A stretch of DNA of 23,697 nt from a virus, in IMG/VR virus record IMGVR_UViG_3300010885_050101, positions 1-23,697 of that record; one strand, given 5' to 3'. Under the pieces are notes generated by a model. The model was not told the origin of the DNA. It did not search any database and worked only from the letters and a program-made list of their open reading frames with translations. Below, piece by piece: positions 7,057-22,424 of this stretch; position 1 is the first letter of the stretch, and each line of letters opens with the position of its first letter. Position numbers and translations under genes: made by a program.

Positions 7057-7094
7057 TTGATTATGCTACATTAAACTAGCAGATAATAATACTT

Positions 7095-7102
7095 GATAAA
7101 TA
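7095..7102 (+). promoter_or_regulatory. Candidate T4-type late promoter GATAAATA
   Basis: The octamer GATAAATA matches NATAAATA, the form of the T4 late -10 element (TATAAATA) reported for T4-like cyanophages. It lies in a 66-base gap and ends 20 bases before the ATG at 7123. The same octamer type recurs in two of the other longer gaps between plus-strand genes, which supports it. Such promoters have no -35 box and need the phage late sigma factor (gp55 type), which is not in this window. Confidence 0.6.
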
Positions 7103-7122
7103 TAATACAAAGAGAGTCTACT

Positions 7123-7737
7123 ATGCAGAGTCAAGAAACAACTGGAATGCACATCGAAGGGCACATTAAAATATGGGATCCCGAGTCTAAAACCGTCTAT
7201 ATTAACAAACGCAATGCAATTCATTATGAAAACATCAGCATTGCCTTAGCAAATAGTATAGCAAATAGCGGCAACGGATTTGTTTACGAAATGGCGTTTG
7301 GCAATGGCGGAACAGCCATAGATCCAACTGGCATTATAACATATCTAACACCAAACAGTTCAGGATCTAATGCCAGTTTATATAATCAAACTTTTCAGAA
7401 AGTAGTTAATCAAAATTCTGTTAATAACAAAGACCCCAGCAGAAACTTCATTGAAGTAAGACATGTTACTGGAACAAATTACACTGATGTGTTTGTAACC
7501 TGTTTGTTAGACTACGGAGACGGCAATACTTCAGGACAGCAGGCTTTTGATAACGCAACAGATGCAAACGGGTCGTTTGTGTTTGATGAATTGGGGTTAA
7601 AGTCCTATAGTGCTAGCGGAACCAGTTTACTGTTAACACATGTAATTTTTCATCCGGTACAAAAAAGCCTTAACAGATTAATTCAAATTGATTATACTGT
7701 GCGAATACAAAGTTTAACTGGTATTGTAGGAGTATAA
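7123..7737 (+). CDS. Conserved T4-like phage virion structural protein (204 residues)
   Basis: The frame could start at TTG 7093, but the ATG at 7123 is preferred: AGAGAG (7111-7116) lies six bases upstream as a ribosome site, and the TTG overlaps the late promoter. The N-terminus reads MQSQETTGMHIEGHIKIWDP, followed by NKRNAIHYENISIALA and a segment with EMAFGNGG...ITYL. I recall this pattern (IEGHIKI.DP, RNAIHYEN, FGNGG) from conserved hypothetical structural proteins of T4-like marine phages. There is no signal peptide, membrane segment or catalytic motif. It sits between the giant structural protein and the fibre genes, three bases before the next start, and probably heads a late transcript with the two fibre genes behind it. 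The precise virion role is unknown. Confidence 0.72.
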   Translation: MQSQETTGMHIEGHIKIWDPESKTVYINKRNAIHYENISIALANSIANSGNGFVYEMAFGNGGTAIDPTGIITYLTPNSSGSNASLYNQTFQKVVNQNSVNNKDPSRNFIEVRHVTGTNYTDVFVTCLLDYGDGNTSGQQAFDNATDANGSFVFDELGLKSYSASGTSLLLTHVIFHPVQKSLNRLIQIDYTVRIQSLTGIVGV

Positions 7738-7740
7738 CAC

Positions 7741-9864
7741 ATGAGTTATCAAGTTACATACACTGAAACAACTAATCCTGCCAAACCTGCGTTAACAGTA
7801 GCAGATCAAACTTTAAATTCTCAAACAAGTCTAACTTTTGTAGGAAAGAATTATGCGGGATATGCCCCAGTTGTGGCAAATAATTTCTTACACTTATTAG
7901 AAAATTTTGCAAATAACAATCCTCCTGCAAATCCAATTGAAGGACAATTGTGGTACGATAATACCAGTGGGGTTAGTTTATTAAAAGTATTTGACGGAAC
8001 AATTTGGACATCAGCAGGATCTGTAAAAAAAGCAGGATCGGCACCGTTAGCCGCCAATAGTAATCCTGGAGATTTATGGGTGAATACTACAACAGCACAA
8101 CTGTATGTGTTTTCTGGTAGCAACTGGCTATTGGTTGGCCCGCAGTTTAGTTCTGGAAGTTTAACAGGCACTGTAGTTGATACTATAATAGATACTTCAA
8201 ATGTAAGTCACAGCGTAATATCTTTGTATGCAAACAACTATCAATTAGCAATCATAAGCAAAGAAACATTTACTCCAAAATCAACTATTGTTGGATTTAC
8301 TACTATTAACCAGGGATTTAATCTCAGTTCTGTTGATTCAGACAGCACTACAAGTTTATCAAGGATATGGGGAACTGCAAATAATGCTGATGCATTACTA
8401 GTTAACGGGGTTTCTGTACCCTCTGCAAATTTTGTAAGATCCGACATATCTGGCACTAGTAATTTTCCGCTAACACTCAGAGCCGATGGAGGCCTGACTA
8501 TCGGCAATAACTCCAGTTTTAACATTGGTCGAGATGGAACTAGTACAATTTTATATTCTAAATCCAGTGGCGACAGTGTGGATTTCAAATTAAATAATAA
8601 CGGCTCACCAGTAACTGTGTTACATATCAGTGCGTTGGCACGGGTAGGAATTGGATCAAATAACACTACTCCTACAGCCACACTGGATGTTGCTGGCACA
8701 TTTACTGCTAGTGGCGACTTGTCAGTGACAAGTCTTACAGAGTCTACTTCAGCAACCACCGGCAGTATTAAAACTGTTGGCGGCCTTGCAGTAGGTAAAA
8801 AATCTACATTAGGTGATGATGTCACAATAAACGGCCAATTATATTTAAATTGGTTAAACGGCACCAGTGGTTTACCAGAACCTGGTTCGGCATTATTACC
8901 AAGTACCACCAATATTTACGATATTGGATCATCAGAATTATCATTTAGAAACATATATGCTGATTCGTTTGTAGGAAATTTTTCTGGAACATTTACTGGA
9001 ACATTACAAGGCAGTATTAGCGGATCAGCCGCACGACTTGCTAGTCCGACAGTTTTCAGTATGCAAGGCGATGTTAGTAGTGACGCCATCAGCTTCACTG
9101 GACAAAGTGCATTAGGAACTGCAACATTTACAACATCAATTAGCCAAAATTTTATCAGTAACAAAACAGCCGCAACTGATTCGTTGTTGTCTGATCAATT
9201 GTTGGTTTATCGTACTGGTGGCAGCAGTTTATTGAGAATGACCAAAGAAACATTATTGAGTCATGTGGCCACAGTTCCAGTTGGTGTAATAATGCCATAT
9301 GCAGGCACTGTGGTTCCAAACGGTTATTTGTTGTGCGACGGCAGTGAAGTTAAAACAGCCGATTATCCAGCATTGTACGGAGTCATAGGATACACTTATA
9401 AATCAGCTTCTCTGTTATTGGGTGCCGCAACATTTGCATTGCCTGATTTGAGAGGAAGATTTCCTCTAGGTAAAGACAGCATGGACAACGGCCAGCGTAT
9501 TCCTTCAAAAGATGATATTGGCGTGTTGATTGATGCAGGCGGCGGGTCTGCCAACAGAGTCACCGACGTTACCGCTGACATAATTGGTACGGGGTCTGGT
9601 TCTCAAACGGTCACGTTGTCAATTAATAATTTACCAGATCACAAACATAATCTCAGTAGTGCTTCTGCACAATATTATGCGGCAGGTTTGCCGGGCGGTG
9701 TTAGTGACACGGCTGCGGTTCCTGGACTTGGTTTATCAAATTCAAGCACTGGATCTGGATTGCCCAACAGCGGAGGAATTATTTCAAGCACGTTAGGGTC
9801 AGCAGTTACAATAATGAATCCGTATACAACTATAAATTATATAATTTTTACTGGTGTCCTATAA
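7741..9864 (+). CDS. Tail fibre protein with phage tail-collar tip domain
   Basis: 707 residues; TAGGAG (7727-7732) precedes the ATG. Residues 1-135 form the N-terminal module shared with the next two genes: LTFVGKNYAGY, LLENFA, GQLWYD, GDLW and a tryptophan-rich end (WLLVGP). Residues about 140-510 are a beta-rich shaft with fibre-type phrases such as ATLDVAGTFTASG and YDIGSSELSFRNIYA. Residues 512-574 are a phage tail-collar domain (VPVGVIMPYAG, NGYLLCDG, LPDLRGRFPLG). The C-terminus has an NLPDHKHNL motif (HxH, as in gp12/gp37-like metal-binding tips) and ends NPYTTINYIIFTGVL, typical of collar-type fibres. This is most likely a receptor-binding or short-fibre-like protein. Fibres of this class usually trimerise and may need a chaperone; none is recognisable here. 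Whether it is a true gp12 equivalent cannot be said. Confidence 0.87.
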   Translation: MSYQVTYTETTNPAKPALTVADQTLNSQTSLTFVGKNYAGYAPVVANNFLHLLENFANNNPPANPIEGQLWYDNTSGVSLLKVFDGTIWTSAGSVKKAGSAPLAANSNPGDLWVNTTTAQLYVFSGSNWLLVGPQFSSGSLTGTVVDTIIDTSNVSHSVISLYANNYQLAIISKETFTPKSTIVGFTTINQGFNLSSVDSDSTTSLSRIWGTANNADALLVNGVSVPSANFVRSDISGTSNFPLTLRADGGLTIGNNSSFNIGRDGTSTILYSKSSGDSVDFKLNNNGSPVTVLHISALARVGIGSNNTTPTATLDVAGTFTASGDLSVTSLTESTSATTGSIKTVGGLAVGKKSTLGDDVTINGQLYLNWLNGTSGLPEPGSALLPSTTNIYDIGSSELSFRNIYADSFVGNFSGTFTGTLQGSISGSAARLASPTVFSMQGDVSSDAISFTGQSALGTATFTTSISQNFISNKTAATDSLLSDQLLVYRTGGSSLLRMTKETLLSHVATVPVGVIMPYAGTVVPNGYLLCDGSEVKTADYPALYGVIGYTYKSASLLLGAATFALPDLRGRFPLGKDSMDNGQRIPSKDDIGVLIDAGGGSANRVTDVTADIIGTGSGSQTVTLSINNLPDHKHNLSSASAQYYAAGLPGGVSDTAAVPGLGLSNSSTGSGLPNSGGIISSTLGSAVTIMNPYTTINYIIFTGVL

Positions 9865-11546
9865 TGAGTTATACAATTACAAAAACAGATGGTACAACAA
9901 TAACACAAATTGTTGACGGAAGTTTAGATCAGACTTCAACAGACCTTACACTTATTGGAAAAAATCTTGCAGGCTACGGTATTTTTATCAATGAAAATTT
10001 AGTCAAATTATTAGAAAACTTTGCAAGTACTTCTCAACCTTCTTATCCTTTAACTGGTCAGTTATGGTTTGATACTACTGAAAATAGACTAAAGGTGTAT
10101 GACGGTAATAATTTTAAAGTAAGTGGCGGAACCATTATTTCTAAAACTCCTCCAAGTTCTATTGCGGCCGGAGACATATGGATTGACAGTAGTAGACAAC
10201 AACTGTATTTCAATGACGGAATATCAACCAAACTTGCCGGGCCAATTTACACATCATCTCAGGGCGTTACAGGATTCAATGCTGAGGACATAGTTGATAC
10301 TGTTGGAGTTTTACATACTATTTTAAAATTGTATGTATCACAAACTTTATTAGGAATTTTCAGCAAAGACTCTTTTACGCCAGGTTCTGTAATACCAGGA
10401 TTTTCAGGAAGCATTTCATCTGGATTCAATGTTAGCACACTATCGGGTGTGAAATTCACAGTTCCTACATCGCAAGCAGATGCGTTAAGGGCAGCGGACG
10501 GCACATCTCGCACTGCGGCAAATTTTTTATCAACACTCGATGATTCTGCCACAACTGGCACAATATCAATACAAAATGCAGTGCCGTTAGTGCTAGGAGA
10601 AGGAGCCAGCACTGAAATCAATGCCACAACTTCCATATTTCAGTTTAAATCAAACACCAGCAATCAAAACTTTGGAGTAAATTTGCTAAGTGGCAGTGGA
10701 TTAACAACTGCATTTTTTATCAACGCTACTACACAGCGTATGGGTGTATATACTGAACTGCCAACAGCAACTTTGGATGTCAATGGTGATGCTCGTGTTC
10801 GAGGTAATTTAACAGTAGAAGGTAATTTAACTTCTATTAACACCACTAATGTTGAAATAGCTGATAAATTAATTGAATTAGCAAAAGTTTCGTCTCCGTC
10901 AAATTCCACAGCTAACGGCGGCGGCATCCTGATAGAAGGCGGCACAGACGGTGATAAAACTCTTACGTGGTCAAGTACTGGATCAACGTGGTCGTCTTCC
11001 GAAAATTTTAACCTAGCTACCAACAAAACATACAAGATTGCAGGGTTTGATGTGTTAAATCAAACTAGTTTAGGCACAACCGTAGCAAGTGCTCCAGGAT
11101 TAACCAGTGTTGGAACATTGACTAGTTTGCAAGTTAGTAATTTAAGTTTTAATAATACCACTATTTCTAGTACAAGTGCAAATTCAAACATTGTGTTAAG
11201 TCCTAATGGGACTGGAACAGTTAGCATTAATAATGCTAAAATATCAAATTTAGGCACGCCTACAGATCCAGCACACGGTGCCAATAAATCATATGTGGAT
11301 TATACTGTACGAATAGCCCCGTTAGGACTTAGCGCAGATACTACTGGCTTAACTCCTGCACAAATTGCTACCAGTATACTTGCAAAGATATTTCCACCAA
11401 CGGATCACGAAACTGGCACTATTTTACGGTTGATTTGTACGGACAAACCAGAATTGGGTACCGATTTAAACAGTAGATATAAACAATTTAATCTAACACC
11501 AACTGTAGGTACTACAAAAGAATGGCAATACGGTGGTCCGCTATAA
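9864..11546 (+). CDS. Tail fibre paralogue 2 with an unassigned tip
   Basis: 560 residues. The start overlaps the stop of the previous fibre gene by one base (TAATG) and has no clear Shine-Dalgarno sequence, so translational coupling is likely. The N-terminal module repeats that of the previous gene (LIGKNLAGY, KLLENFA, GQLWFD, GDIWID), and similarity continues through a second block (FSKDSFTPGSVIPGF, TSQADAL). The shaft has typical fibre phrases: TLDVNGDARVRGNLTVEGNL, LSPNGTGTVSI, LGTPTDPAHGANKSYVD. The last 70 or so residues (LTPAQIATSILAKIFPPTDHETG... to EWQYGGPL) are a different tip, with no collar domain and no HxH motif; I do not recognise it. Probable role: a structural fibre subunit with its own ligand specificity, or a shaft partner of the neighbouring proteins. 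Confidence 0.8.
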   Translation: MSYTITKTDGTTITQIVDGSLDQTSTDLTLIGKNLAGYGIFINENLVKLLENFASTSQPSYPLTGQLWFDTTENRLKVYDGNNFKVSGGTIISKTPPSSIAAGDIWIDSSRQQLYFNDGISTKLAGPIYTSSQGVTGFNAEDIVDTVGVLHTILKLYVSQTLLGIFSKDSFTPGSVIPGFSGSISSGFNVSTLSGVKFTVPTSQADALRAADGTSRTAANFLSTLDDSATTGTISIQNAVPLVLGEGASTEINATTSIFQFKSNTSNQNFGVNLLSGSGLTTAFFINATTQRMGVYTELPTATLDVNGDARVRGNLTVEGNLTSINTTNVEIADKLIELAKVSSPSNSTANGGGILIEGGTDGDKTLTWSSTGSTWSSSENFNLATNKTYKIAGFDVLNQTSLGTTVASAPGLTSVGTLTSLQVSNLSFNNTTISSTSANSNIVLSPNGTGTVSINNAKISNLGTPTDPAHGANKSYVDYTVRIAPLGLSADTTGLTPAQIATSILAKIFPPTDHETGTILRLICTDKPELGTDLNSRYKQFNLTPTVGTTKEWQYGGPL

Positions 11547-11557
11547 CAGCAAATTAA

Positions 11558-11565
11558 CATAAATA
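11558..11565 (+). promoter_or_regulatory. Candidate T4-type late promoter CATAAATA
   Basis: CATAAATA fits NATAAATA and sits in the 41-base gap between the second and third fibre genes, 22 bases before the ATG at 11588. The ribosome site AAGGA (11573-11577) lies between the octamer and the start. The position relative to the gene is nearly the same as for the octamers at 7095 and 13995, which argues against chance. Confidence 0.65.
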
Positions 11566-11587
11566 CTGAAATAAGGAAAAGAGCGCA

Positions 11588-13063
11588 ATGGCATACACTA
11601 TAAACAGATATAACGGAGCAGTAATTACAGTAGTCGCCGATGGCACTATTGATACCACGCTTGATGTTAAATTAATTGGTAAAAATTATGCAGGATATGG
11701 CGAAATACAAAATGAAAATCTAGTGTTCTTGCTGGAAAATTTTGCCAGCCCTACTCAGCCTCCGCGCCCATTATCTGGTCAGGTATGGTTTGACAGTGCT
11801 AACAATAAGTTAAAATTTTATGACGGCACAAAATTTAAAACAACTGGCGGCGCTGAAGTTTCTTCAACACCTCCAACTGGATTATCAGAAGGCGATTTCT
11901 GGTGGGACAAAGGAAATACTCAATTGTATGCATGGACTGGCACTAGATTTGAATTAATTGGGCCACAAGGTGTTGCCGGTTCAGCAACTACACAAATGCG
12001 TTCTGTTAGCTTGACAGATACCAACGGTGCTCCTCATGCAGTTATCCAAGGTATCTCCAACGGACAAACTATTTTTACTATCAGTTCAGATGCAGATTTT
12101 ACATTAAATGCTGCCGTTAATGCAATTACTGGATTCACAAAAATTCGTCAAGGTATAACATTATGTTACACTAATTCAGAAGGTCCCTTACTGGGACAAA
12201 CCACAAGCAATCATAGATTTTTTGGAACAGCAACGAACTCAGAAAGATTGGGTGGATACAGTGTCACCGAATTTGTAAGGTCAGGCGCAACCAGTTTTGC
12301 TTCTGCAATTAATTTTGCAGATGTGGGATACACTGTTGGCAACCCAGTTGCTAAATTACGTGTATTCAACGACAGTGCTACCACTCCAACAATTTATAAT
12401 CAGCAAGGCGATACTATTGTTTTTAAAACAACTGTATCAAGTGTAGAAAAAACACCAATGAAATTGGTAGGTACGGATGTATTACCTGGAGTAACCCTTA
12501 CTTCCAACTTGGGATCACCTACATTAAAATTCAATAACTTGTATGCAAATTACATATATGGTACAATTGAACAAGCAGATAAGTTGACTGTTAACGGCAC
12601 ATACAGATCTGCAAGTACTGATCCAGGTGTTAATACTATTGCTGCCAGAGATGGTGTTGGCACACTTTCAGCAATTTTATTTTCAGGAGTAGCAACCCAA
12701 GCTAATTATGCTGACTTGGCTGAAAAGTATCTTGCTGATGCAGAATATGAAGTTGGTACAGTTTTAATGGTAGGTGGAGAGAAAGAAGTTACTGCTTGTG
12801 TTATTGGTAGTAGAGCAATTGGTCCAGTATCTGCAAATCCTGCATATTTAATGAATAAAGATTTAGAAAACGGAACAATCATTGCTTTAAAAGGAAGAGT
12901 TCCAGTAAAAGTTTCTGGACCGGTGGCTAAAGGTCAACATTTAGTTGCTGGAGCAAACGGCACAGCGCAATCTGCTGGCGCTGGCAATCCCGATACTTTT
13001 GCTATTGCACTAGAAACCAACGCTGATCCTTTAATTAAATTAGTTGAATGTTTAATATTATAA
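11588..13063 (+). CDS. Tail fibre paralogue 3 with a C-terminal ADLAE/VSANP domain
   Basis: 491 residues; AAGGA (11573-11577) and a late-promoter octamer precede it. The N-terminus is the shared fibre module (KLIGKNYAGYGE, LLENFA, GQVWFD, GDFWWD). The shaft includes a segment of the SNLGSPTLKFNNLYANYIYG type, also present in the first fibre. From about residue 372 a distinct C-terminal domain begins: ANYADLAEKYLADAEYEVG, then GGEKEV, IGPVSANPAYLMN, and a beta-rich end finishing KLVECLIL. Its layout resembles the C-terminal module of some marine phage fibres and, more loosely, the intramolecular-chaperone/peptidase G2 domain (YAE...G.VVS..P). Self-cleavage is a hypothesis only; no catalytic residues can be assigned by eye. 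Likely virion role: fibre or fibre tip. Confidence 0.8.
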   Translation: MAYTINRYNGAVITVVADGTIDTTLDVKLIGKNYAGYGEIQNENLVFLLENFASPTQPPRPLSGQVWFDSANNKLKFYDGTKFKTTGGAEVSSTPPTGLSEGDFWWDKGNTQLYAWTGTRFELIGPQGVAGSATTQMRSVSLTDTNGAPHAVIQGISNGQTIFTISSDADFTLNAAVNAITGFTKIRQGITLCYTNSEGPLLGQTTSNHRFFGTATNSERLGGYSVTEFVRSGATSFASAINFADVGYTVGNPVAKLRVFNDSATTPTIYNQQGDTIVFKTTVSSVEKTPMKLVGTDVLPGVTLTSNLGSPTLKFNNLYANYIYGTIEQADKLTVNGTYRSASTDPGVNTIAARDGVGTLSAILFSGVATQANYADLAEKYLADAEYEVGTVLMVGGEKEVTACVIGSRAIGPVSANPAYLMNKDLENGTIIALKGRVPVKVSGPVAKGQHLVAGANGTAQSAGAGNPDTFAIALETNADPLIKLVECLIL

Positions 13064-13073
13064 AGGAATATTC

Positions 13074-13955
13074 ATGTCTGGCGTAAATACTGCTGTTTTA
13101 GCAACCGATTATAATACTATACAATCAAAAGTTAATAATATATTAGGAATTGGTTCAGGAGATTATGGTTATGGACAATCAGTCTCCAGTAGCCAAGTTG
13201 CAAGAACCAATAGAATCACGGTGGCTCAGTGGAATGCGTTAAGAACTGATTTGTTGAAAGCACGTAATCATCAAACAAATGTAGATGAAAGCGGACTTTT
13301 AACTATTGCATCAACATCAACTCGTATCAAAGAAGCTGATAGGCTAGCATACAGCATATTTGCAGATACCATAACTACAAATAGATTAATAACACCGCCC
13401 AGTAGTCAAGCGTCTTTGACAAATTTACAAACTGTGACACGAACAGCTCCTTGGGCCACCACTATCAGCCACCAAGTGACTGTGTCTTTTGCATCTCAAG
13501 ATGCAGGACGATACTTTTTTAACAGTGGTGGTTCCATCAAATTCAGTTCGTCCATGACCGGATACTCTGCTGGAATTAGTTTGTTAGTCAATCAGTCTTG
13601 GGCCACATTACTGGCCAACATGGGTATTATCAGTTTTGGTGCATATTCAACCACACGGAGTGGCACCGGCACAGCCCAAGCCATAGGTTTTTACAATTTA
13701 ACTACTACTGATCAATTGGTTTTTACCAAACTGGTCGAAGCTGGTAACCAATACACTCCAAATCAATACGATCTTTATGTAAAAAAATCCGGAAATTCCG
13801 TCATTTTTACACCCACTTGGAGTTACACATCTGCTGGAAATTACGGAAATTTTGAACCAGCAGATGGCACGTTAACCAGTTTAGTGCAAGCATATACTGC
13901 TACCGGTACAAATGTTTCAATAACTGCTCCAACAAGTTCTACAACTAGTTTATAA
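13074..13955 (+). CDS. Virion protein, short form of a paired structural family
   Basis: 293 residues, with AAGGA (13063-13067) upstream and a 10-base gap after the previous stop, so probably cotranscribed with it. The whole protein corresponds to the N-terminal 290 or so residues of the next gene: shared YNxIQ, GSGDYGYGQ, SSQV, QWNxLRxDLLKARxHQTxVDESG, PPSSxxSL and GNQYTPNQYDL. No signal peptide, membrane segment or enzyme motif. I recall proteins of this pattern as virion structural proteins of T4-like marine phages, without a defined function. The pairing with a longer neighbour suggests the shared region is an attachment or oligomerisation module; the short form would be a bare version. 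The function is inferred from context. Confidence 0.75.
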   Translation: MSGVNTAVLATDYNTIQSKVNNILGIGSGDYGYGQSVSSSQVARTNRITVAQWNALRTDLLKARNHQTNVDESGLLTIASTSTRIKEADRLAYSIFADTITTNRLITPPSSQASLTNLQTVTRTAPWATTISHQVTVSFASQDAGRYFFNSGGSIKFSSSMTGYSAGISLLVNQSWATLLANMGIISFGAYSTTRSGTGTAQAIGFYNLTTTDQLVFTKLVEAGNQYTPNQYDLYVKKSGNSVIFTPTWSYTSAGNYGNFEPADGTLTSLVQAYTATGTNVSITAPTSSTTSL

Positions 13956-13964
13956 AATTTGTAT

Positions 13965-13993
13965 TCAAAGTATTTTTAATAACGATACTTTGA
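13965..13993 (+). other. AT-rich stem-loop upstream of the late promoter
   Basis: TCAAAGTAT (13965-13973) pairs perfectly with ATACTTTGA (13985-13993): nine base pairs around an 11-base loop. It lies ten bases after the stop of the 293-residue gene and directly before the AATAAATA octamer at 13995. No run of T follows the stem, so it is not a classical intrinsic terminator. It may be an RNA 3'-end, a processing or stability element separating two late transcripts, or chance in AT-rich DNA. Confidence 0.4.
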
Positions 13994-13994
13994 C

Positions 13995-14002
13995 AATAAA
14001 TA
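13995..14002 (+). promoter_or_regulatory. Candidate T4-type late promoter AATAAATA
   Basis: AATAAATA fits NATAAATA, lies in a 68-base gap and ends 21 bases before the ATG at 14024. AGGGGA (14013-14018) is the ribosome site. It would drive the 863-residue gene and perhaps read on into the downstream genes. Spacing to the start matches the two other octamers. Confidence 0.62.
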
Positions 14003-14023
14003 CATATATAATAGGGGACAACA

Positions 14024-16615
14024 ATGGCAGCAGGAGTCGGATCTAAAGTAGAATATTTAGATTACAATCAAATACAAACCATAATAAACAATGTGTTTGG
14101 TGCGGGCTCAGGCGATTATGGCTACGGGCAAACTGTCACTAGTAGCCAAGTTTCTCAATATGCTGTGGTGTCAGTAACTCAGTGGAATTCTCTAAGAAAC
14201 GATTTGCTCAAAGCTAGACAGCATCAAACTGGGGTAGATGAGTCTGGAAATTTAGGCCTTCCTACACTTGATATTAGACTGACCGACGCAGATCGTGCGG
14301 CGTATCTGAGTATGGCAACGTTGATTAGAGATAATAGAACTGTTAGTCCTCCTAGCAGTGAATCTAGTCTGGTAACTTTAATATCATCAAACAGAGCTTC
14401 TGGTTGGACCGGTACAGTTAATCAAACAATAACCATAGAATTTGGAACAGCAGATAATCTTCGTTGGTTTTTTAATTCAGGCGGCAACTTTCAATTTAGT
14501 GCATCTCTTACTAATTATCCCACTTCCGGCGACAGCAGATTAGTTAGTGAATCTTGGGCAGTGCTGTTGAAAAATATGGGAATAGTAAAACTATCTAACA
14601 ATTCAACAACCAGTACCGGCACTGGAACCTCAGCAACTAATATTGGTTTTGTTAATTTAAACTCCAGCGATCAATTGATTTTTAGCAAATTAGTCGAAAG
14701 CGGAAATCAATATACTCCTAATCAATATGATTTAAAAGCAAGAATATCAGGCGGTTCAGCACTGGTGTTTACTCCTATTTGGTCCTATACTGATGCGGGC
14801 AATGACGGCGATTATAGAGTATTTGAACCAGTAATTGGTACACTGACCAGCACTTGTCAGATGTATATTGCTACCGGACAAAATGTAGCAGTTGCATACC
14901 CACAAATACAATTCAGCGGTTCATCGTGGACATATTCATCAGCTTATTCAACGCCACCGCCAAGTTATAGCATCCGACCTAATGTTACTTTGGTAAATGA
15001 AGGCAGCACAGTTACTTACACTGTGAGCACTGATAACGTATTTAACGGCACTGTGTTGTACTGGAAAAATTTAGGTACTTCCTCGCCGCAAGATTTTGTT
15101 GATGGAGCCAATTCTGGATCTGTTACCATAAACACCAATGTTGGAACTATAACAAGAGCAGTACGTGCAGATCTCACAACAGAGGGATCAGAAACTATTA
15201 TTTTACAACTGCTAACTGGATCTACCGCAGGTGATCCAGTGGCAACCGCTGACACTGTCACAATCAACGACACATCGCTGACTCCTATAAGTTTTTCAAT
15301 AACACCAAATGTTTTCTCACAAAATGAAGGATTACCGGTTGTTTTCACTATCAATACCACAGGAGTACCAGACGGCACAGTAGTGTACTGGTATAACGTG
15401 GGTACTACCAGTGCCAACGATTTCCCCAATGATGTCAACACCGGAACAGTGACCATACAAGGCGGTACAGCCAGTATCACACGATCGCCTCTTGCGGATT
15501 TTACCACGGAAGGTGCTGAAACGCTTATTTTGGAATTGCGTTCCAGCAGTTCATCCGTCACGCCGCTGGCCACTAGTAGTACAGTAACGATAGTTGATGC
15601 CAGCACCACTCCCATAGTGCCCACTTACGATGTAGCACCCAGTGTGTACAGTGTCAATGAAGGAAACAGTTTGGTATTTTATATTACCACTTCAGGAGTG
15701 CCAGATGGAACTGTGTTGTATTGGACAATAAATAACAGCACCAGCAATAATGCAGACTTTGGTATCACCAGCGGATCAGTCACAATTGCTTCAAATGCGG
15801 CGCAATTTTCAGTAACACCTACAGCAGACGCCACCACTGAAGGTGCTGAGCGTTTCTCAGTATCAATTCGAACTGGCAGTGTTTCTGGCCAACCTGTAGC
15901 AACTAGTCCTACCATCACAATTGTTGATACCAGTACAACTCCATATATCCCGCCATCTGAGCCGTATATACCACCAACTCCAACTCTGGCGGCCAGTGCA
16001 GTTGGTCCCTATTTCAACTACACAATTCCAGGCCCTGAATCTAACACTCGAGCCTATTATGTACGAATTTACAAAGACACCAACGGCCCTGCTACACAAT
16101 CATGGTCTGTAAGCACTGCTTTTAGCATACAGTCAGGTTTTGGGCAAGGCAGTAGTGGAACATTCAGCGGGGCAATTAATAACGCAGTAGTTGGATTTAA
16201 CGGCCCGCACGATGCTGGATATGTGTATGTGACTGTATCAGCATCCGGCTATAATTCTTACAGCACTAGTATCTATGTTCCTGCAAATACTGCATATACT
16301 CCGTACACAGTTTCTAACGGATTCACACAAGAATTTGGTATACCTTCTGGCATTGCTGCCAGTGTTGTTGCGTTCTATACTGGTAATGGCACGTTTTATG
16401 TGACTCAAGATCCAGGAGTAATCCGTTATCAACTATATCGTGCGCCAGAGGCTGGCGGAGTAGCATATTGGTGTAATTTTTTGATAAACAACGGATTAAC
16501 CACCAGCTCTCAACAATTTCTTGATGCGTTTGGCTCTGCTCCAGAGACATTTACAGGACCAAAAACCAGTTATCAGTATGGTAATGGTTATAATGTGTTT
16601 TCAGATAAACCGTAA
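14024..16615 (+). CDS. Virion adhesion protein with three Calx-beta-like repeats and a DUF4214-like end
   Basis: 863 residues, long form of the preceding gene. Residues 1-290 are the shared module (GSGDYGYGQ, QWNSLRNDLLKARQHQTGVDESG, GNQYTPNQYDL). Three Calx-beta-like repeats follow at about 314-415, 424-523 and 534-635. Each begins with S/D-x-x-P-x-V...NEG, has V-x-YW in the middle, and ends with TTEG(S/A)E and a TITI(N/V)D(T/A)S strand. A proline-rich linker (PYIPPSEPYIPPTPT) leads to a beta domain at about 650-760. Residues about 796-840 (VIRYQLYRAPEAGGVAYW, then QQFLDAFGSAPE) resemble DUF4214, known from bacterial surface and S-layer-associated proteins. Calx-beta domains bind calcium in many proteins and are common in adhesins; here Ca binding is an inference. 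Probable role: an extended virion appendage making host-surface contact. Confidence 0.78.
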   Translation: MAAGVGSKVEYLDYNQIQTIINNVFGAGSGDYGYGQTVTSSQVSQYAVVSVTQWNSLRNDLLKARQHQTGVDESGNLGLPTLDIRLTDADRAAYLSMATLIRDNRTVSPPSSESSLVTLISSNRASGWTGTVNQTITIEFGTADNLRWFFNSGGNFQFSASLTNYPTSGDSRLVSESWAVLLKNMGIVKLSNNSTTSTGTGTSATNIGFVNLNSSDQLIFSKLVESGNQYTPNQYDLKARISGGSALVFTPIWSYTDAGNDGDYRVFEPVIGTLTSTCQMYIATGQNVAVAYPQIQFSGSSWTYSSAYSTPPPSYSIRPNVTLVNEGSTVTYTVSTDNVFNGTVLYWKNLGTSSPQDFVDGANSGSVTINTNVGTITRAVRADLTTEGSETIILQLLTGSTAGDPVATADTVTINDTSLTPISFSITPNVFSQNEGLPVVFTINTTGVPDGTVVYWYNVGTTSANDFPNDVNTGTVTIQGGTASITRSPLADFTTEGAETLILELRSSSSSVTPLATSSTVTIVDASTTPIVPTYDVAPSVYSVNEGNSLVFYITTSGVPDGTVLYWTINNSTSNNADFGITSGSVTIASNAAQFSVTPTADATTEGAERFSVSIRTGSVSGQPVATSPTITIVDTSTTPYIPPSEPYIPPTPTLAASAVGPYFNYTIPGPESNTRAYYVRIYKDTNGPATQSWSVSTAFSIQSGFGQGSSGTFSGAINNAVVGFNGPHDAGYVYVTVSASGYNSYSTSIYVPANTAYTPYTVSNGFTQEFGIPSGIAASVVAFYTGNGTFYVTQDPGVIRYQLYRAPEAGGVAYWCNFLINNGLTTSSQQFLDAFGSAPETFTGPKTSYQYGNGYNVFSDKP
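14964..15929 (+). repeat. Three tandem Calx-beta-like repeats (protein level)
   Basis: Three units of about 100-110 codons inside the 863-residue gene, starting near 14964, 15294 and 15624. They share NEG near the start, GTVLYW or GTVVYW in the middle and TTEGSE or TTEGAE near the end. DNA similarity between units is clearly lower than protein similarity, so this is an old duplication rather than a recent one. Boundaries are approximate. Confidence 0.68.
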
Positions 16616-16623
16616 GGAACAAT

Positions 16624-16878
16624 ATGTTAACAAAACAACAAATTATAGATATATTTGTCGCTGGAATTAACGAAACTCCAAGTGACGAATTAATTGAAGC
16701 TTATCAAAGTTTAAATTTTACCCAACAGCAACTTGATGAAGTAATTGCACGAAATCTTGCTGTGAAAACAGATTCAACATACACAGACCGTGTAGCAGAA
16801 GACTATCAAACATATGTGGAAGCAAGTCAGGAAGAACAAGCCACTTGGACACATGTTGAACCCATTCACAATAACTGA
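16624..16878 (+). CDS. Small acidic protein of unknown function (84 residues)
   Basis: AAGGA (16614-16618) overlaps the stop codon of the previous gene and sits five bases before the ATG, so expression is linked to the adhesion gene. The protein is acidic and probably helical: MLTKQQIIDIFVAGINETPS, then DELIEAYQSLNFTQQQLDEVIARN and an acidic tail with EEQATWTHVEP. No membrane segment, signal peptide or known motif. Being just behind the Calx-beta fibre gene, it could be a small chaperone or accessory of that protein, as T4 gp38 or gp57A are for fibres, but only position supports this. I do not recognise the family. Confidence 0.62.
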   Translation: MLTKQQIIDIFVAGINETPSDELIEAYQSLNFTQQQLDEVIARNLAVKTDSTYTDRVAEDYQTYVEASQEEQATWTHVEPIHNN

Positions 16879-16907: not shown

Positions 16908-16938
16908 AGTGTATTATTGCACTATCTCGGAGTTATCT

Positions 16939-17289
16939 ATGGACGAAAAAATTCAAAAAGCGTTTGAAGTTGTCAACTATATGGCAACATTATCAAATCA
17001 GCGGAGACTATTGGCTGAAGAAATAGATCAAAAATTAATCTATTATGTCAACGGATCAACATTCAAAATTACTCCCACTCTAATCAATTTTGCAAAATTA
17101 ATGATTGATTTGAATCGCACAGTGGATGCAGTGTTTATCGATGACAACAATAATCCAGTTGTGGTAGCGGACGTGCAAGAATTTTTTGATAAAATCACTT
17201 CTCAGTATTTTGAAACCACTGCCAATTACTCCGCTAGATTCTTGGCCATCAAGTCCAAAAGAAAAATAAGCGATTTAATTGATTTATGA
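16939..17289 (+). CDS. Unknown protein heading the glycosyltransferase block (116 residues)
   Basis: The frame extends up to GTG 16909, but ATG 16939 is chosen because GGAG (16929-16932) lies six bases upstream, while the GTG has no ribosome site and falls close to the TATAAT. The protein begins MDEKIQKAFEVVNYMATLSN, is predicted mostly helical, and contains ALAEEIDQKL-like and FFDKITSQYFETTANYSARF segments; it ends in a basic KSKRKISDLIDL. No signal peptide, membrane segment or catalytic motif. Its TGA overlaps the next gene's ATG (ATGA), so it is translationally coupled to the first glycosyltransferase. I do not recognise it; an accessory or structural role is possible. Confidence 0.62.
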   Translation: MDEKIQKAFEVVNYMATLSNQRRLLAEEIDQKLIYYVNGSTFKITPTLINFAKLMIDLNRTVDAVFIDDNNNPVVVADVQEFFDKITSQYFETTANYSARFLAIKSKRKISDLIDL

Positions 17290-18143
17290 AAACAGTTGGT
17301 GCAGTTATTTTTGCTCAAAATAATTCATCCATTGACTATGTCAAACTGGCAATTTTTGCCGCGACTCAGGTAAAGACTTTTTTAAATATTCCCGTTAGTG
17401 TTATAACTGATTGTGCAGACTGGATGCTGTCAGCATATCCTAAAGAATCTATGATATTTGATCAAATTATTGAAATAGATTATGCACCCTCAAATAATCA
17501 AAAAAGATTTAACGATGGCACATTGTCTTCAAAATTTTTAGAATGGAAAAATCTAGATAGAAATTCAGTATTTGATTTAACACCGTATGATAGGACTCTG
17601 GTTATTGATAGCGATTATGTTATCAATTCTAACTCACTACTGGGAGCATTAGAATCTGATCATAACTTTCAAATATATAAAGACAGTTTTAGTTTATCGG
17701 CTTGGAGAGAAAACACTGAATTTATAAGAATAAATCAATACAGTATTCCTTTTTATTGGGCCACCGCGTTTGTTTTTGAAAAAACATTAGAAGTAAAATC
17801 TTTTTTTGATATTATTGATTATATTAAATCTAATTGGCAATATTTTAGAACACTGTACAGTATAGAAGTTGCTACATTTAGGAACGATTTTGCTTTCAGT
17901 ATTGCAATTCATCTCATGAACGCAAAAACATCAGGTATATTTGCACATGAATTGCCAGGAAAAATGTTGTATATTTCTGATAGAGATTTATTAATATCTA
18001 TCAAAGATGGTAAAATGAAATTTTTAGTTGAAAAAGAAAACCACCTAGGAGAGTATACTGCGGCGTCGTTGAATGACACTGATGTTCATGTTATGAATAA
18101 ACTCAGCCTCACTAGATTCATTGATGGAGGTTCAGGTGTCTAA
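17286..18143 (+). CDS. GT-A-like glycosyltransferase, paralogue A (DSD motif)
   Basis: 285 residues, starting in an ATGA overlap with the previous gene. The N-terminus is a beta-strand nucleotide-sugar-binding type (MKTVGAVIFAQNNSSIDYVK), followed by PVSVITDCADWML and a strand ending LVIDSDYVI, with DSD at residues 108-110. That position and context match the metal-binding DxD motif of GT-A glycosyltransferases, closest in look to the GT8-like group. The next gene is a clear paralogue (AQNN...DYVK near the start, DAD at the same place). The reaction would be transfer of a sugar from a nucleotide sugar, with divalent metal, in the host cytoplasm. Donor and acceptor are unknown. The second half (residues about 150-285) is less characteristic. 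The fold assignment is inferred from motifs; the enzyme could be inactive or have a structural role. Confidence 0.6.
   Translation: MKTVGAVIFAQNNSSIDYVKLAIFAATQVKTFLNIPVSVITDCADWMLSAYPKESMIFDQIIEIDYAPSNNQKRFNDGTLSSKFLEWKNLDRNSVFDLTPYDRTLVIDSDYVINSNSLLGALESDHNFQIYKDSFSLSAWRENTEFIRINQYSIPFYWATAFVFEKTLEVKSFFDIIDYIKSNWQYFRTLYSIEVATFRNDFAFSIAIHLMNAKTSGIFAHELPGKMLYISDRDLLISIKDGKMKFLVEKENHLGEYTAASLNDTDVHVMNKLSLTRFIDGGSGV
18126..18130 (+). promoter_or_regulatory. Shine-Dalgarno GGAGG fixing a GTG start
   Basis: GGAGG lies five bases before GTG 18136, inside the end of the preceding coding sequence. TTG 18121 and ATG 18124 are also in frame but are upstream of or overlap the ribosome site. The GTG start also gives a protein beginning MSKGFVVLAQNN, which aligns with the start of the upstream paralogue. 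Confidence 0.72.
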
Positions 18144-18978
18144 AGGATTTGTAGTTCTTGCTCAGAATAATAAAAATGTTGATTACGTCAAACAAGCCTA
18201 TGCACTGGCGTTGAGTATTAAGGCAACACAAAAAAATGTAGCAAACATATCATTGGTTACCAATAATAGAGTTCCAAAAGAATACAAATCAGTATTTGAT
18301 AAAATTATTCCAATTCCCTTCAATGACGATGCAAAAAAAACACAATGGAAAATTGAAAATCGTTGGAAATTATATCATGCCAGTCCTTATTATGAAACCA
18401 TCGTGTTAGATGCAGATATGTTGCTGTTGGAAGACATTGGATTATGGTGGGATTATTGCGCCAATTTTGATATGCGTTTTTGTTCAAAAATCACAAATTA
18501 TAAGTTAGAGAAGGTGATTGATACTGTGCATCGCAAGACGTTTATAGCAAACAGCTTGCCCAATGTATATCATGCGTTGCATTACTTTAAAAAATCCGAA
18601 ACAGTTTCTGAATTTTATAAAATATTAGAATTTGTTGTAAACAACTGGGCATCATGCTTTGGCAAAGTAGCACCCAATGAATATCAAAATTGGCTAAGTA
18701 TGGATCTTGCTTGTGCAGTTGCAATAGAAATAGCTGGACTTCAAGACATAATTGATTCAAATTCTCCGTTGCAATTTACCCACATGAAATCTCCTATTCA
18801 AGGCTGGACCATAACTCCAGAAAGCTGGCAAGATATGATTTCTCATTATCTTACTTCAACAGGAAATTTAGTAGTTGGAAATATTGCTCAGGGCAAGTTA
18901 TTTCACTATGTGGAAAAGAACTTTATAACAGCCACGTTGTTAACAGAATTAGAGGAGTTGGCAAGTGGCAAGTCCTAA
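18136..18978 (+). CDS. GT-A-like glycosyltransferase, paralogue B (DAD motif)
   Basis: 280 residues from GTG 18136, chosen because of GGAGG at 18126-18130; it overlaps the upstream gene by eight bases. The opening MSKGFVVLAQNNKNVDYVKQ mirrors the upstream paralogue. A SLVTNNRVP segment follows, then NRWKLYHASPYYETIVLDADML, with DAD at residues 92-94 as the likely metal and nucleotide-sugar site. This arrangement (NRW.L...SPY..TIVLDAD.L) resembles GT8-like and related phage glycosyltransferases more closely than the first copy does. The C-terminal half contains tryptophan-rich segments (NNWASCFGKVAPNEYQNW, MKSPIQGW) that could shape an acceptor site. Donor sugar and acceptor are unknown. Likely works together with the neighbouring genes on one glycan or one virion protein, which is an inference from operon structure. 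Confidence 0.65.
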   Translation: MSKGFVVLAQNNKNVDYVKQAYALALSIKATQKNVANISLVTNNRVPKEYKSVFDKIIPIPFNDDAKKTQWKIENRWKLYHASPYYETIVLDADMLLLEDIGLWWDYCANFDMRFCSKITNYKLEKVIDTVHRKTFIANSLPNVYHALHYFKKSETVSEFYKILEFVVNNWASCFGKVAPNEYQNWLSMDLACAVAIEIAGLQDIIDSNSPLQFTHMKSPIQGWTITPESWQDMISHYLTSTGNLVVGNIAQGKLFHYVEKNFITATLLTELEELASGKS

Positions 18979-20450: not shown

Positions 20451-21769
20451 TGTACGATATTGCGTTTCTATCATTCAATGAACCAAATGCAAATAATTTG
20501 TATTTTAAATTTTTAAAAAAAATTGCCAATCTTCCAAATAGGGTATACAGAATTCACGGAGTTCAGGGCATACATCAAGCTCATGTGGCCGCTGCCAAAC
20601 TTGCATCAACCAGCATGTTTTGGGTTGTTGATGCGGATGCAGATGTATTACCCAATTTTAAATTTGATACAAAACTGGACCCTAGCGAAGAAGACATTGT
20701 ACATGTGTGGAGAAGCAAGAATCCTATAAATGACTTGGAGTATGGTTACGGAGGTGTTAAACTATTACCAACAAATTTAACATTGAACATGGACACGAGT
20801 TCGCCGGATATGACAACTAGTATATCGCCTAGATTTAAATCCGTGCCCCAGGTATCAAATATAACAGCGTTTAACACAGATGAATTGACCACATGGCGTA
20901 GTGCTTTTAGAGAATGTGTGAAACTGGCTAGTGGTTTGATTTTTGGGCAGATAAGTCAAGAAACTGAAAAAAGATTAAATGTTTGGAAATACAATTTTAA
21001 TGATAAACCTTTTGCTGAATATGCAAGAGGCGGTGCAAGTGCAGGTGAATGGTACGGCATAGCACACAAAAATAATCCTGAAGCATTGTTTAAAATCAAC
21101 GATTATGAATGGTTAGAGATTGAGTTTGGAAAACACATTATCATGTTTCCTGATTTGTACCCCACTGATGCACAAACACTTAAACACGTATGTCTTGAAC
21201 GCGAACGCGAACGTGAACGCGAACGTGAACGCGAACGTGAACGCGAACTCGAATCATTGGAGGTAAATTTTACAATAGAACAAATTAATCGATGGAAAGA
21301 TGCTTTTAGAGAAGCTGCCAACACTAATGATGCGGCCCGGTTAGATACATTACTGCATAGAGGAATTGATGAATATTCTCGTGGCGGTGCGAGTGCGGGA
21401 AATTGGTGGAGAGAAACATATCAAGACGACCCGGAAAAAATGCAACAGATTACCAATGATAGATTTTTGGTTGAGGAGTTTTACTGGCATGTTGAAAATT
21501 ATCCATTAGAACAATTTCGACCAGATCCGCTCATATGCTGGAGAAGTGCTTTTAGAGAAGCTGCCAATACCACTGATGCGGCCCAATTAGACGATTTGCT
21601 GTATCGAGGAATTGATGAATATGCTCGTAGTGGTGCAAGTGCAGGCAAATGGTGGGGAGAAACTTATCGAGACAATGCAGAAAAAATGCAACAAATTACC
21701 GATGATAAATTTCTAGAAGGGGAGTTTTACTGGCATATTGAAAACAACCCAGTGGAGCAATTCAAGTGA
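20450..21769 (+). CDS. Glycosyltransferase-like protein with triplicated C-terminal modules and an (ER)8 linker
   Basis: 439 residues; AGGAGA precedes the TAATG start. Residues 1-110 are homologous to the previous gene: FLSFNEPNANN, YRIHGVQGIHQAHVAAAKLA, WVVDADADV (DAD 61-63) and EYGYGGVKLLP. Module 1 starts at W149 (WRSAFRECVKL...AEYARGGASAGEWYG...DYEWLEIEF) and matches the C-terminal part of the previous protein. Residues 250-265 are (Glu-Arg)8. Module 2 (W282-C363) and module 3 (W364-K439) are shortened to about 80 residues and are direct tandem copies, 55 of 76 residues identical by my count. The GT core looks intact, but whether the extra modules add acceptor binding, make a multivalent structural protein or merely accumulate is unknown. 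The stop lies inside the 3' end of convergent thyX. Confidence 0.65.
   Translation: MYDIAFLSFNEPNANNLYFKFLKKIANLPNRVYRIHGVQGIHQAHVAAAKLASTSMFWVVDADADVLPNFKFDTKLDPSEEDIVHVWRSKNPINDLEYGYGGVKLLPTNLTLNMDTSSPDMTTSISPRFKSVPQVSNITAFNTDELTTWRSAFRECVKLASGLIFGQISQETEKRLNVWKYNFNDKPFAEYARGGASAGEWYGIAHKNNPEALFKINDYEWLEIEFGKHIIMFPDLYPTDAQTLKHVCLERERERERERERERERELESLEVNFTIEQINRWKDAFREAANTNDAARLDTLLHRGIDEYSRGGASAGNWWRETYQDDPEKMQQITNDRFLVEEFYWHVENYPLEQFRPDPLICWRSAFREAANTTDAAQLDDLLYRGIDEYARSGASAGKWWGETYRDNAEKMQQITDDKFLEGEFYWHIENNPVEQFK
21197..21244 (+). repeat. Hexanucleotide microsatellite (GAACGY)8 coding (Glu-Arg)8
   Basis: Eight uninterrupted hexamers, with arginine codons in the order CGC CGC CGT CGC CGT CGC CGT CGC, so most of the tract has a 12-base super-period. 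That pattern suggests growth by slippage or unequal exchange in two-hexamer steps. The unit is a multiple of three, so length changes keep the frame. It encodes a highly charged linker, possibly helical, between module 1 and module 2. Confidence 0.95.
21293..21766 (+). repeat. Tandem duplication of an 82-codon module
   Basis: Copy 1 runs 21293-21538 (246 bases), copy 2 21539-21766 (228 bases, the last six codons missing). They remain very similar in DNA, for example TGCTTTTAGAGAAGCTGCCA and GGAATTGATGAATAT occur in both. This points to a fairly recent duplication. A longer, more divergent copy begins at 20894. Confidence 0.93.
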
Positions 21770-22424
21770 GATTTGTCATTAACGGGAATATTTCTGCAAT
21801 TACTTTTGCACAGGCAACTGCTACTTCTTGATGTTCTTTTTGTGTACCGTTAGCACTGCGTAGCTCAATGAAATGAATCCAACTGCGCAATGTACCATTC
21901 ATATAAAGTCTACTTTCAATCAGGCCTTCGGGTAATACAGCTCGAGCTTGTTCTTTTGCTATGCCGTTGGCAATGGCCCATTCGTACTCTCTTTTGGCAG
22001 CATATATGACTCGCTGTTGAGCTTGGTACCATTCATTTTGTAACAGTTGATCATCCACTGCGATGCTGTTCTGTCTATTTTTATCGTCTTGCAACCGTGC
22101 TTCTCTACATACAAACGATAGGTCTCGAGTAGGGTCAGCATATCGTTGACTGAATTCTTGGAAACTGAAACTTCTGTGTCGTAAGATTTGTCGGGCAATA
22201 TCTCTTGTTGTGGTGATTTCAATACAGGCGGAGACCATTTCAAGTGGGCTCCAGTGTTGGTGTTTGACCAAGTATCGTATGAGTTTTTCTGATGTGTCTG
22301 TGTTGAGTTGATTGGAGGGATTGCTGACACGGGCGCAATACGCAATGAGTTCTTGCGCATCTGCAAGACCCAAATTTCTAAATTCCGCTGTGGGTTGGGA
22401 ATAGGATAATAGCTGAACATTCAT
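21762..22424 (-). CDS. thyX: Flavin-dependent thymidylate synthase ThyX
   Basis: 220 residues, a usual length for the family. ThyX methylates dUMP to dTMP using methylenetetrahydrofolate, FAD and NADPH, supplying thymidylate for phage DNA synthesis in the host cytoplasm. The diagnostic RHRx7S motif is present: R82-H83-R84 followed by S92 in RHRSFSFQEFSQRY. Other family features are HQHWSPLEM (residues 55-63), the ISR-like ARVSNPSNQ at 31-39, and LPEGLIESRLYMNGTLRSW...FIELR near the C-terminus. No lesion is visible and it should be active. It is the last gene of the minus-strand operon, three bases after the upstream stop. Its end overlaps the convergent late gene by eight bases. As a nucleotide-metabolism gene it is expected to be early or middle, unlike the opposing late genes. 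Confidence 0.96.
   Translation of the reverse strand: MNVQLLSYSQPTAEFRNLGLADAQELIAYCARVSNPSNQLNTDTSEKLIRYLVKHQHWSPLEMVSACIEITTTRDIARQILRHRSFSFQEFSQRYADPTRDLSFVCREARLQDDKNRQNSIAVDDQLLQNEWYQAQQRVIYAAKREYEWAIANGIAKEQARAVLPEGLIESRLYMNGTLRSWIHFIELRSANGTQKEHQEVAVACAKVIAEIFPLMTNLT

Follow-up and report, generated by a model that had tools for sequence, protein, structure and literature searches.

A probable phage adhesin with a calcium-type stalk, an exchangeable tip and a small gene linked to the tip

We analysed a stretch of 23,697 nucleotides (nt) of viral DNA, positions 1-23,697 of the record IMGVR_UViG_3300010885_050101 (the window; all coordinates are window positions), which comes from a very large, uncultured phage known from sequence. 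Our subject is a pair of neighbouring genes for a short and a long version of one protein, with 293 and 863 amino acids (aa), together with the small open reading frame (ORF) that follows them. The features are listed below, with the confidence of AlphaFold2 (AF2) models given as the predicted local distance difference test (pLDDT).

13074..13955, + strand: short paralogue (293 aa), consisting of the ~300-aa module only; 52% identity to residues 3-293 of the long protein; AF2 pLDDT 93.4
14024..16615, + strand: long paralogue, 863 aa, made up of the module, three repeats, a linker and a tip
14024..14923, + strand: N-terminal module of the long protein (residues 1-300), a proposed virion anchor, from paralogy and a match to gp360 of phage PA5oct
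14957..15286, + strand: Calx-beta-like repeat 1 (residues 312-421), from a profile of the three units
15287..15613, + strand: Calx-beta-like repeat 2 (residues 422-530), from the same profile
15617..15943, + strand: Calx-beta-like repeat 3 (residues 532-640), from the profile; Pfam Calx-beta 20.7 bits, cut-off 27
15944..15988, + strand: proline-rich (Pro-rich) linker (residues 641-655); the exchange edge between two related contigs, L032 and L060, falls in the matching linker
15995..16279, + strand: tip, beta-sandwich part (about residues 658-752); AF2 blocks with pLDDT 70-92, generic immunoglobulin (Ig)-like matches only
16433..16555, + strand: tip, DUF4214-like core (about residues 804-844), from profile comparison; all scores below the Pfam cut-off
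16624..16878, + strand: 84-aa partner ORF, a proposed tip-specific accessory protein; linked to the tip and exchanged with it
16909..17289, + strand: conserved 126-aa gene that bounds the exchangeable segment and is not part of it

The two genes are tandem paralogues. Residues 2-286 of the short protein align with residues 3-293 of the long protein at 52% identity over 291 columns (BLASTP, E 8e-95), which bears out the original prediction that the 293-aa gene is in essence the N-terminal module of its 863-aa neighbour. Beyond the module, the long protein continues with three repeats of ~108 aa, the Pro-rich linker and an end of 223 aa. A scan of viral contigs for the module found 29 close relatives, and a wider scan gave 207 with an alignment, from which 80 were retained. 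Among 84 records that were inspected, many of which are near-copies with non-independent events, 83 carry a module ORF (105 ORFs in total), and most of these ORFs are ~300 aa long and stand alone. The module is, in short, a widespread phage family. Twenty of the 21 module ORFs longer than 500 aa contain one to nine of the same repeats, and the sole protein without them has He_PIG domains. In a tree built from 60 of these 105 ORFs, the long modules of the window group into a single clade (support 100), next to which lie the short modules from the same phages; the extended state requires five changes, or at least four as judged by starred branches. This tree fits the earlier view that the extension was gained, although some of the changes may represent losses.

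The AF2 model of the module has helices at its N-terminus and a mostly beta C-terminal part. It showed no clear fold match in the PDB (best Foldseek E 0.039; best VIA Z 6.6, under the tool's 'common' level), and the best sequence match among solved structures had an E of 0.74. Three BFVD models match the module well (E 5e-22 to 3e-20), none of them with a described function. Two other ORFs, L101:2030-4801 and L102:4944-6032, match the module in two pieces, the first covering residues 3-98 or 3-104 and the second starting at 167; the ~65 residues in between would suggest an insert. It is also worth mentioning that the contig L125 encodes two module-bearing giant ORFs, 3943-8004 and 7887-11450 (1353 and 1187 aa), which overlap by ~118 nt as called, the second start being uncertain.

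We located the repeats with a profile of the three units; a BLASTP self-comparison of the long protein gave the trivial match only and revealed no repeats. We compared the repeat profile with that of 16 bacterial Calx-beta domains from plasmids, 12 of which lie clearly above the Pfam cut-off. The profile-profile probability was 94% with a score of 46.1, as compared to 10.0 for the reversed profile and 16.4 for the best of 100 column shuffles, which are a better guide than profile-profile E-values, as the latter refer to one chosen target. In the alignment, the repeat motifs DF, D and E..E lie opposite the Calx-beta motifs DY, D and E..E. Six acids are retained in 66, 70, 72, 70, 69 and 64 of 74 distinct repeats, and the last acidic position forms D-x-S. 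We take these acids to be candidate Ca2+ ligands, presumably equivalent to those of eukaryotic Calx-beta domains. The eukaryotic domain also has an acidic run at its end, which is not present in these repeats. Because the profile-profile match beats the shuffles and the acids are conserved, the repeats appear to be divergent Calx-beta domains with a plausible Ca2+ site in spite of sub-threshold Pfam scores, in agreement with the three Calx-beta-like units proposed originally. The Pfam family Ig_3 (PF13927; cut-off 30 bits) scores 34.5 bits in the window protein, and none of ten scanned relatives reaches 30. Searching solved structures with the repeat sequence returned weak matches, nearly all to Ig chains (best E 0.073) and none to a Calx-beta chain; this absence is still compatible with a Calx-beta fold.

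Outside the module family, the stalk formed by these repeats matches proteins of the Synechococcus phages Sf-FP1 and S-H9-2 and the Prochlorococcus phage P-SSM2 (tblastn, E 2e-22 to 5e-6), which are annotated as virion structural, baseplate hub/lysozyme or hypothetical, as well as Gloeothece plasmid proteins annotated as Calx-beta (best E 5e-6). The stalk-like repeats of S-H9-2 (L132, 147731-148324) carry the RefSeq annotation baseplate hub subunit and tail lysozyme. As the best stalk matches lie in cyanophages, a cyanophage origin was considered and is disfavoured: no psbA/Photo_RC was present in four of four related records, and the module and window gene 7093 match jumbo phages of Proteobacteria.

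The tip contains LYRAPEAGGVAYW, at which the Pfam model DUF4214 (PF13946) matches with 11.7 bits over its positions 32-67 of 72. When compared with ten bacterial DUF4214 domains taken from annotated genes on plasmids, the tip profile reached a score of 35.7 across 38 columns (highest of 200 shuffles, 20.6), and a profile built from nine tips scored 36.2 (shuffle maximum, 19.6). The comparison matches the DUF4214 core motif (R.PD..G..YW), the tip having PE for PD. These scores point to a real DUF4214-like core of ~38 residues, and the protein should not be filed under DUF4214; we call it DUF4214-like, not a member, because it misses the Pfam cut-off and matches half of the model. The DUF4214 likeness noted originally is thus backed by shuffles, while family membership is not, and for the repeats and the end alike the profile-profile matches beat shuffles with both under their Pfam cut-offs. 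DUF4214 is a domain of unknown function that has been termed a likely surface-anchoring domain (PMC12780176). By title and the start of the abstract, none of the papers found on DUF4214 or Calx-beta with phage is about such a phage protein. The AF2 model of the tip (mean pLDDT 54.5) shows a beta-sandwich and, after it, a C-terminal part in which some helices are modelled at low confidence; a fold search returned generic Ig-like matches only, and no solved structure matched by sequence up to E 5. In a one-per-species set of bacterial and archaeal genomes, searched at a sensitivity suited to close relatives, the tip had no relative, and plasmids gave no meaningful hit, so that the proposed acquisition from a bacterium lacks support.

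We found that the tip is an exchangeable unit. Ten long proteins of the window's lineage have modules that are 76-99% identical, but their ends differ: five are DUF4214-like, two are of a second kind (one with a Gly-rich insert), one is of a Pro-rich kind and two are missing. By sequence, the three kinds of end are unrelated to each other. A 9.9-kb contig (L032) and part of a 356-kb contig (L060) are 95-100% identical in all 150-nt steps except 4501-5550, where identity is 57-85%; this patch corresponds to the tip and the partner ORF. Its start lies within the Pro-rich linker, at a run of CCA/CCT codons common to both contigs, and its end at the stop codon of the partner ORF, with near-complete identity beyond. 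The proportion of fourfold-degenerate sites that differ is 15/336 ahead of the patch, rises to 46/96 within the tip and 6/22 within the partner ORF, and falls to 2/39 in the gene that follows. All of this is the pattern of replacement by a diverged copy. Point hypermutation of the patch was rejected, since synonymous sites jump along with amino-acid sites and all substitution types occur. In a further comparison, the contigs L165 and L060 share 98.4% identity along 4.85 kb, beginning about 12 nt before the end of the tip gene; their tips, by contrast, are 28-62% identical over the first 480 nt, and their partners differ by one aa in 83.

The partner ORF is linked to the tip. An ORF of 81-84 aa lies directly behind the tip in nine of nine contigs (the window, L032, L055, L057, L059, L060, L165, L168 and L169), and among 118 viral loci scanned for both, several of them overlapping, tip and partner occur on exactly the same nine contigs. 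Two of these, L165 and L169, were found only with the partner as query, and both have the tip upstream. In five contigs of this lineage with other ends (L031, L056, L058, L061 and L079), the partner ORF is absent and the conserved 126-aa gene comes next; this count leaves out L063, where the locus stops ~60 nt behind the gene, and L062, where the gene is cut by the contig end. We regard the partner ORF as coding because an AAGGA-like ribosome site precedes it in nine of nine cases and its differences are distributed 406/322/764 over the codon positions (28 pairs). The pair is found upstream of a lone module in L168, and in L169, a 28-kb record in which a profile search detected no anchor module, it sits on a different, unrelated 736-aa protein. 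Six of six partner proteins had no convincing Pfam or PHROG match, phage records likewise gave no convincing match, and bacterial genomes gave none. A second partner-like match in the 356-kb record G001 (103480-103608; E 0.0028, with stops inside) has no tip adjacent and was taken as chance.

Taken together, we think that the long protein is probably an adhesin with a calcium-type stalk, an exchangeable receptor-binding tip and a tip-specific accessory protein. The module would attach both the short and the long protein to the particle, with the baseplate or the tail fibres as the most likely site, and the short copy may fill or cap the anchor site. In the long copy, the Calx-beta-like sandwiches would form a projecting stalk, to which Ca2+ probably gives stiffness and which carries the presumed receptor-binding tip, composed of the beta-sandwich and the DUF4214-like C-terminal part. 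The 84-aa protein would be the dedicated helper of the tip, most likely a chaperone for its folding or assembly and less likely a bound co-adhesin. More tentatively, tip and 84-aa ORF might constitute a mobile two-gene cassette for host recognition, with a new family of accessory proteins, that is transferred among related phages as well as to an unrelated fibre backbone, and the Calx-beta-like stalk that usually bears it might render attachment to the host Ca2+-dependent. The original prediction had seen an appendage with a bacterial-looking domain, which holds in part, and had overlooked both the partner ORF and the exchange of tips.

The virion location of the module is suggested by the Pseudomonas phage relative PA5oct (Wroclawvirus), whose gp360 matches the module profile (E 5.8e-31) and bears the record note ESI-MS/MS (electrospray ionisation tandem mass spectrometry), which presumably reflects virion proteomics. 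PMC6950013, on PA5oct, gave no hit for mass spectrometry, and PMC6892783 names four virion proteins of the related phage MIJ3. The gene order of PA5oct (giant structural protein, small proteins, gp10-like tail pin, structural protein, gp360) resembles that of the window, and one of its small proteins occupies the place of window gene 7093, a family present in 11 Pseudomonas phage records. gp360 is like the long protein in its anchor module, gene order and ESI-MS/MS note, and unlike it in having 406 aa, without repeats, tip or partner. The module family is a probable virion protein, as was predicted for the short and long versions, and we infer its location on the particle from gp360 and from the tail-fibre genes upstream.

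Several of our results weigh against the adhesin interpretation. The counts of tip and partner rest on related contigs. Between L165 and L060 the tip changed and the partner stayed; therefore, the partner is specific to the tip family at most, not to an allele. The PA5oct relative, without repeats and tip, supports the anchor only. Pfam Calx-beta (PF03160) scores 19.5 bits in the whole protein and 20.7 bits in repeat 3 alone, both below its gathering cut-off of 27. DUF4214 scores 11.7-12.8 bits in three of five records and is not detected in two, missing the cut-off of 23.2, and its match spans model positions 32-68 of 72 only, not the whole domain. Moreover, the quality of the tip model is too low to support statements about its fold.

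The role of the partner can be read in two other ways, both of which seem unlikely to us. The 84-aa protein might stay on the tip and touch the receptor itself, like gp38 of phage S16, and its position directly behind the tip gene and its exchange with the tip in one pair would suit this role; however, it has 81-84 aa only, and its retention of 82/83 residues between L165 and L060, where the tip changed, is odd for a receptor-contacting part. Alternatively, the ORF might be a passenger, an unrelated small gene that travels with the tip. It has no known relatives, and recombination can part a tip allele from it, as in L165, but within the same lineage it accompanies this tip in 9/9 cases and other ends in 0/5, and the pair persists on a different fibre protein in the L169 record, which lacks the module. 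The interpretation of the ORF as a helper of the tip is the one we prefer.

The placement of the long protein on the tail also depends on its neighbours, among which is a cluster given here for context:

7741..13063, + strand: tail-fibre/structural cluster upstream (707, 560 and 491 aa), from a Collar domain and PHROG families

The 707-aa protein has the Collar domain (Pfam, E 1.2e-18), and the upstream neighbours match PHROG structural and tail families, some neighbours being labelled 'head and packaging'. These labels, and the same general build of an anchor domain with an Ig-like string, would agree with a capsid decoration fibre like T4 Hoc that sticks to the surroundings and not to a host receptor. 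We judge this quite improbable: the gene sits in the tail-fibre cluster next to the Collar-domain protein, the PA5oct relative comes after the gp10-like tail pin gene, the anchor of Hoc lies at the C-terminus and that of the long protein at the N-terminus, and the long protein has no PHROG match. Least credible, and very improbable in our view, is the original idea that a captured bacterial surface-layer domain confers Ca-dependent binding to the host S-layer, for which the DUF4214-like core and the Ca-type acids of the stalk could be cited but nothing beyond the motif was found, given that the tip misses the DUF4214 cut-off and covers half of the model only, that the searches returned no bacterial protein related to it and that no function is established for DUF4214.

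An adhesin of the kind proposed here would have practical consequences, as the receptor-binding protein is seldom known in large uncultured phages. The combination of anchor module, Calx-beta-like string, exchangeable tip and tip-specific small ORF provides a sequence rule for finding receptor-binding candidates, and exchange between near-identical contigs names the exact segment in which host specificity might reside. If the accessory protein is truly unrelated to gp38/Tfa, it would represent a new family of helpers, and such tips may misfold when expressed alone.

Other genes of the window deserve mention. The 707-, 560- and 491-aa proteins of the upstream cluster have N-terminal matches to phrog_14394 and phrog_15511 in common and seem to use one common attachment domain. 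Two tandem ORFs of ~285 aa (17286-18143 and 18121-18978) are conserved downstream of the adhesin genes in almost every locus read; stretches such as VLDADMLLLEDI in them look glycosyltransferase-like by eye, and the ORFs have no Pfam match. A giant protein at 4-7056 (2351 aa, open at the window edge) weakly matches the carbohydrate-binding family CBM_5_12 close to its C-terminal end (E 0.0022) and, also weakly, FG-GAP. A gene for a ThyX-type thymidylate synthase lies at 21762-22424 on the - strand (Thy1, E 1.8e-44).

Parts of the long protein resemble those of known systems. Bacterial surface proteins with DUF4214 and Calx-beta domains are similar to the tip core and the stalk at the profile level, whereas both domains are under the Pfam cut-offs here and no bacterial protein with this tip was found. 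The cyanophage proteins with Calx-beta-like repeats differ from the long protein in that a profile search detected no anchor module in their three records and the tip had no match. T4 Hoc consists of a conserved capsid-binding domain and a string of three variable Ig-like domains (PMC10385173). The long protein shares with it a conserved anchor domain joined to a string of variable Ig-like domains, and differs in its N-terminal anchor, its tail gene neighbourhood, its Calx-beta-type acids and its extra tip with a partner gene.

The closest parallels to the pair of tip and partner are T4 gp37/gp38, the Mu fibre and Tfa, and gp26/gp27 of Alteromonas phage V22, in all of which a linked small gene lies right behind the tip gene. 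In V22, the gp26 tip recognised the host only when co-expressed with gp27 (PMC7289586). Accessory proteins of the gp38, Tfa and V22 gp27 type have ~20-22 kDa, whereas the partner has 81-84 aa and no Pfam or PHROG relation to them; the tip and stalk are likewise of other kinds than in the T4, Mu and V22 systems, and our tests revealed no homology between the parts. The arrangement of a tip plus a partner is a variation of this known scheme and not a new category.

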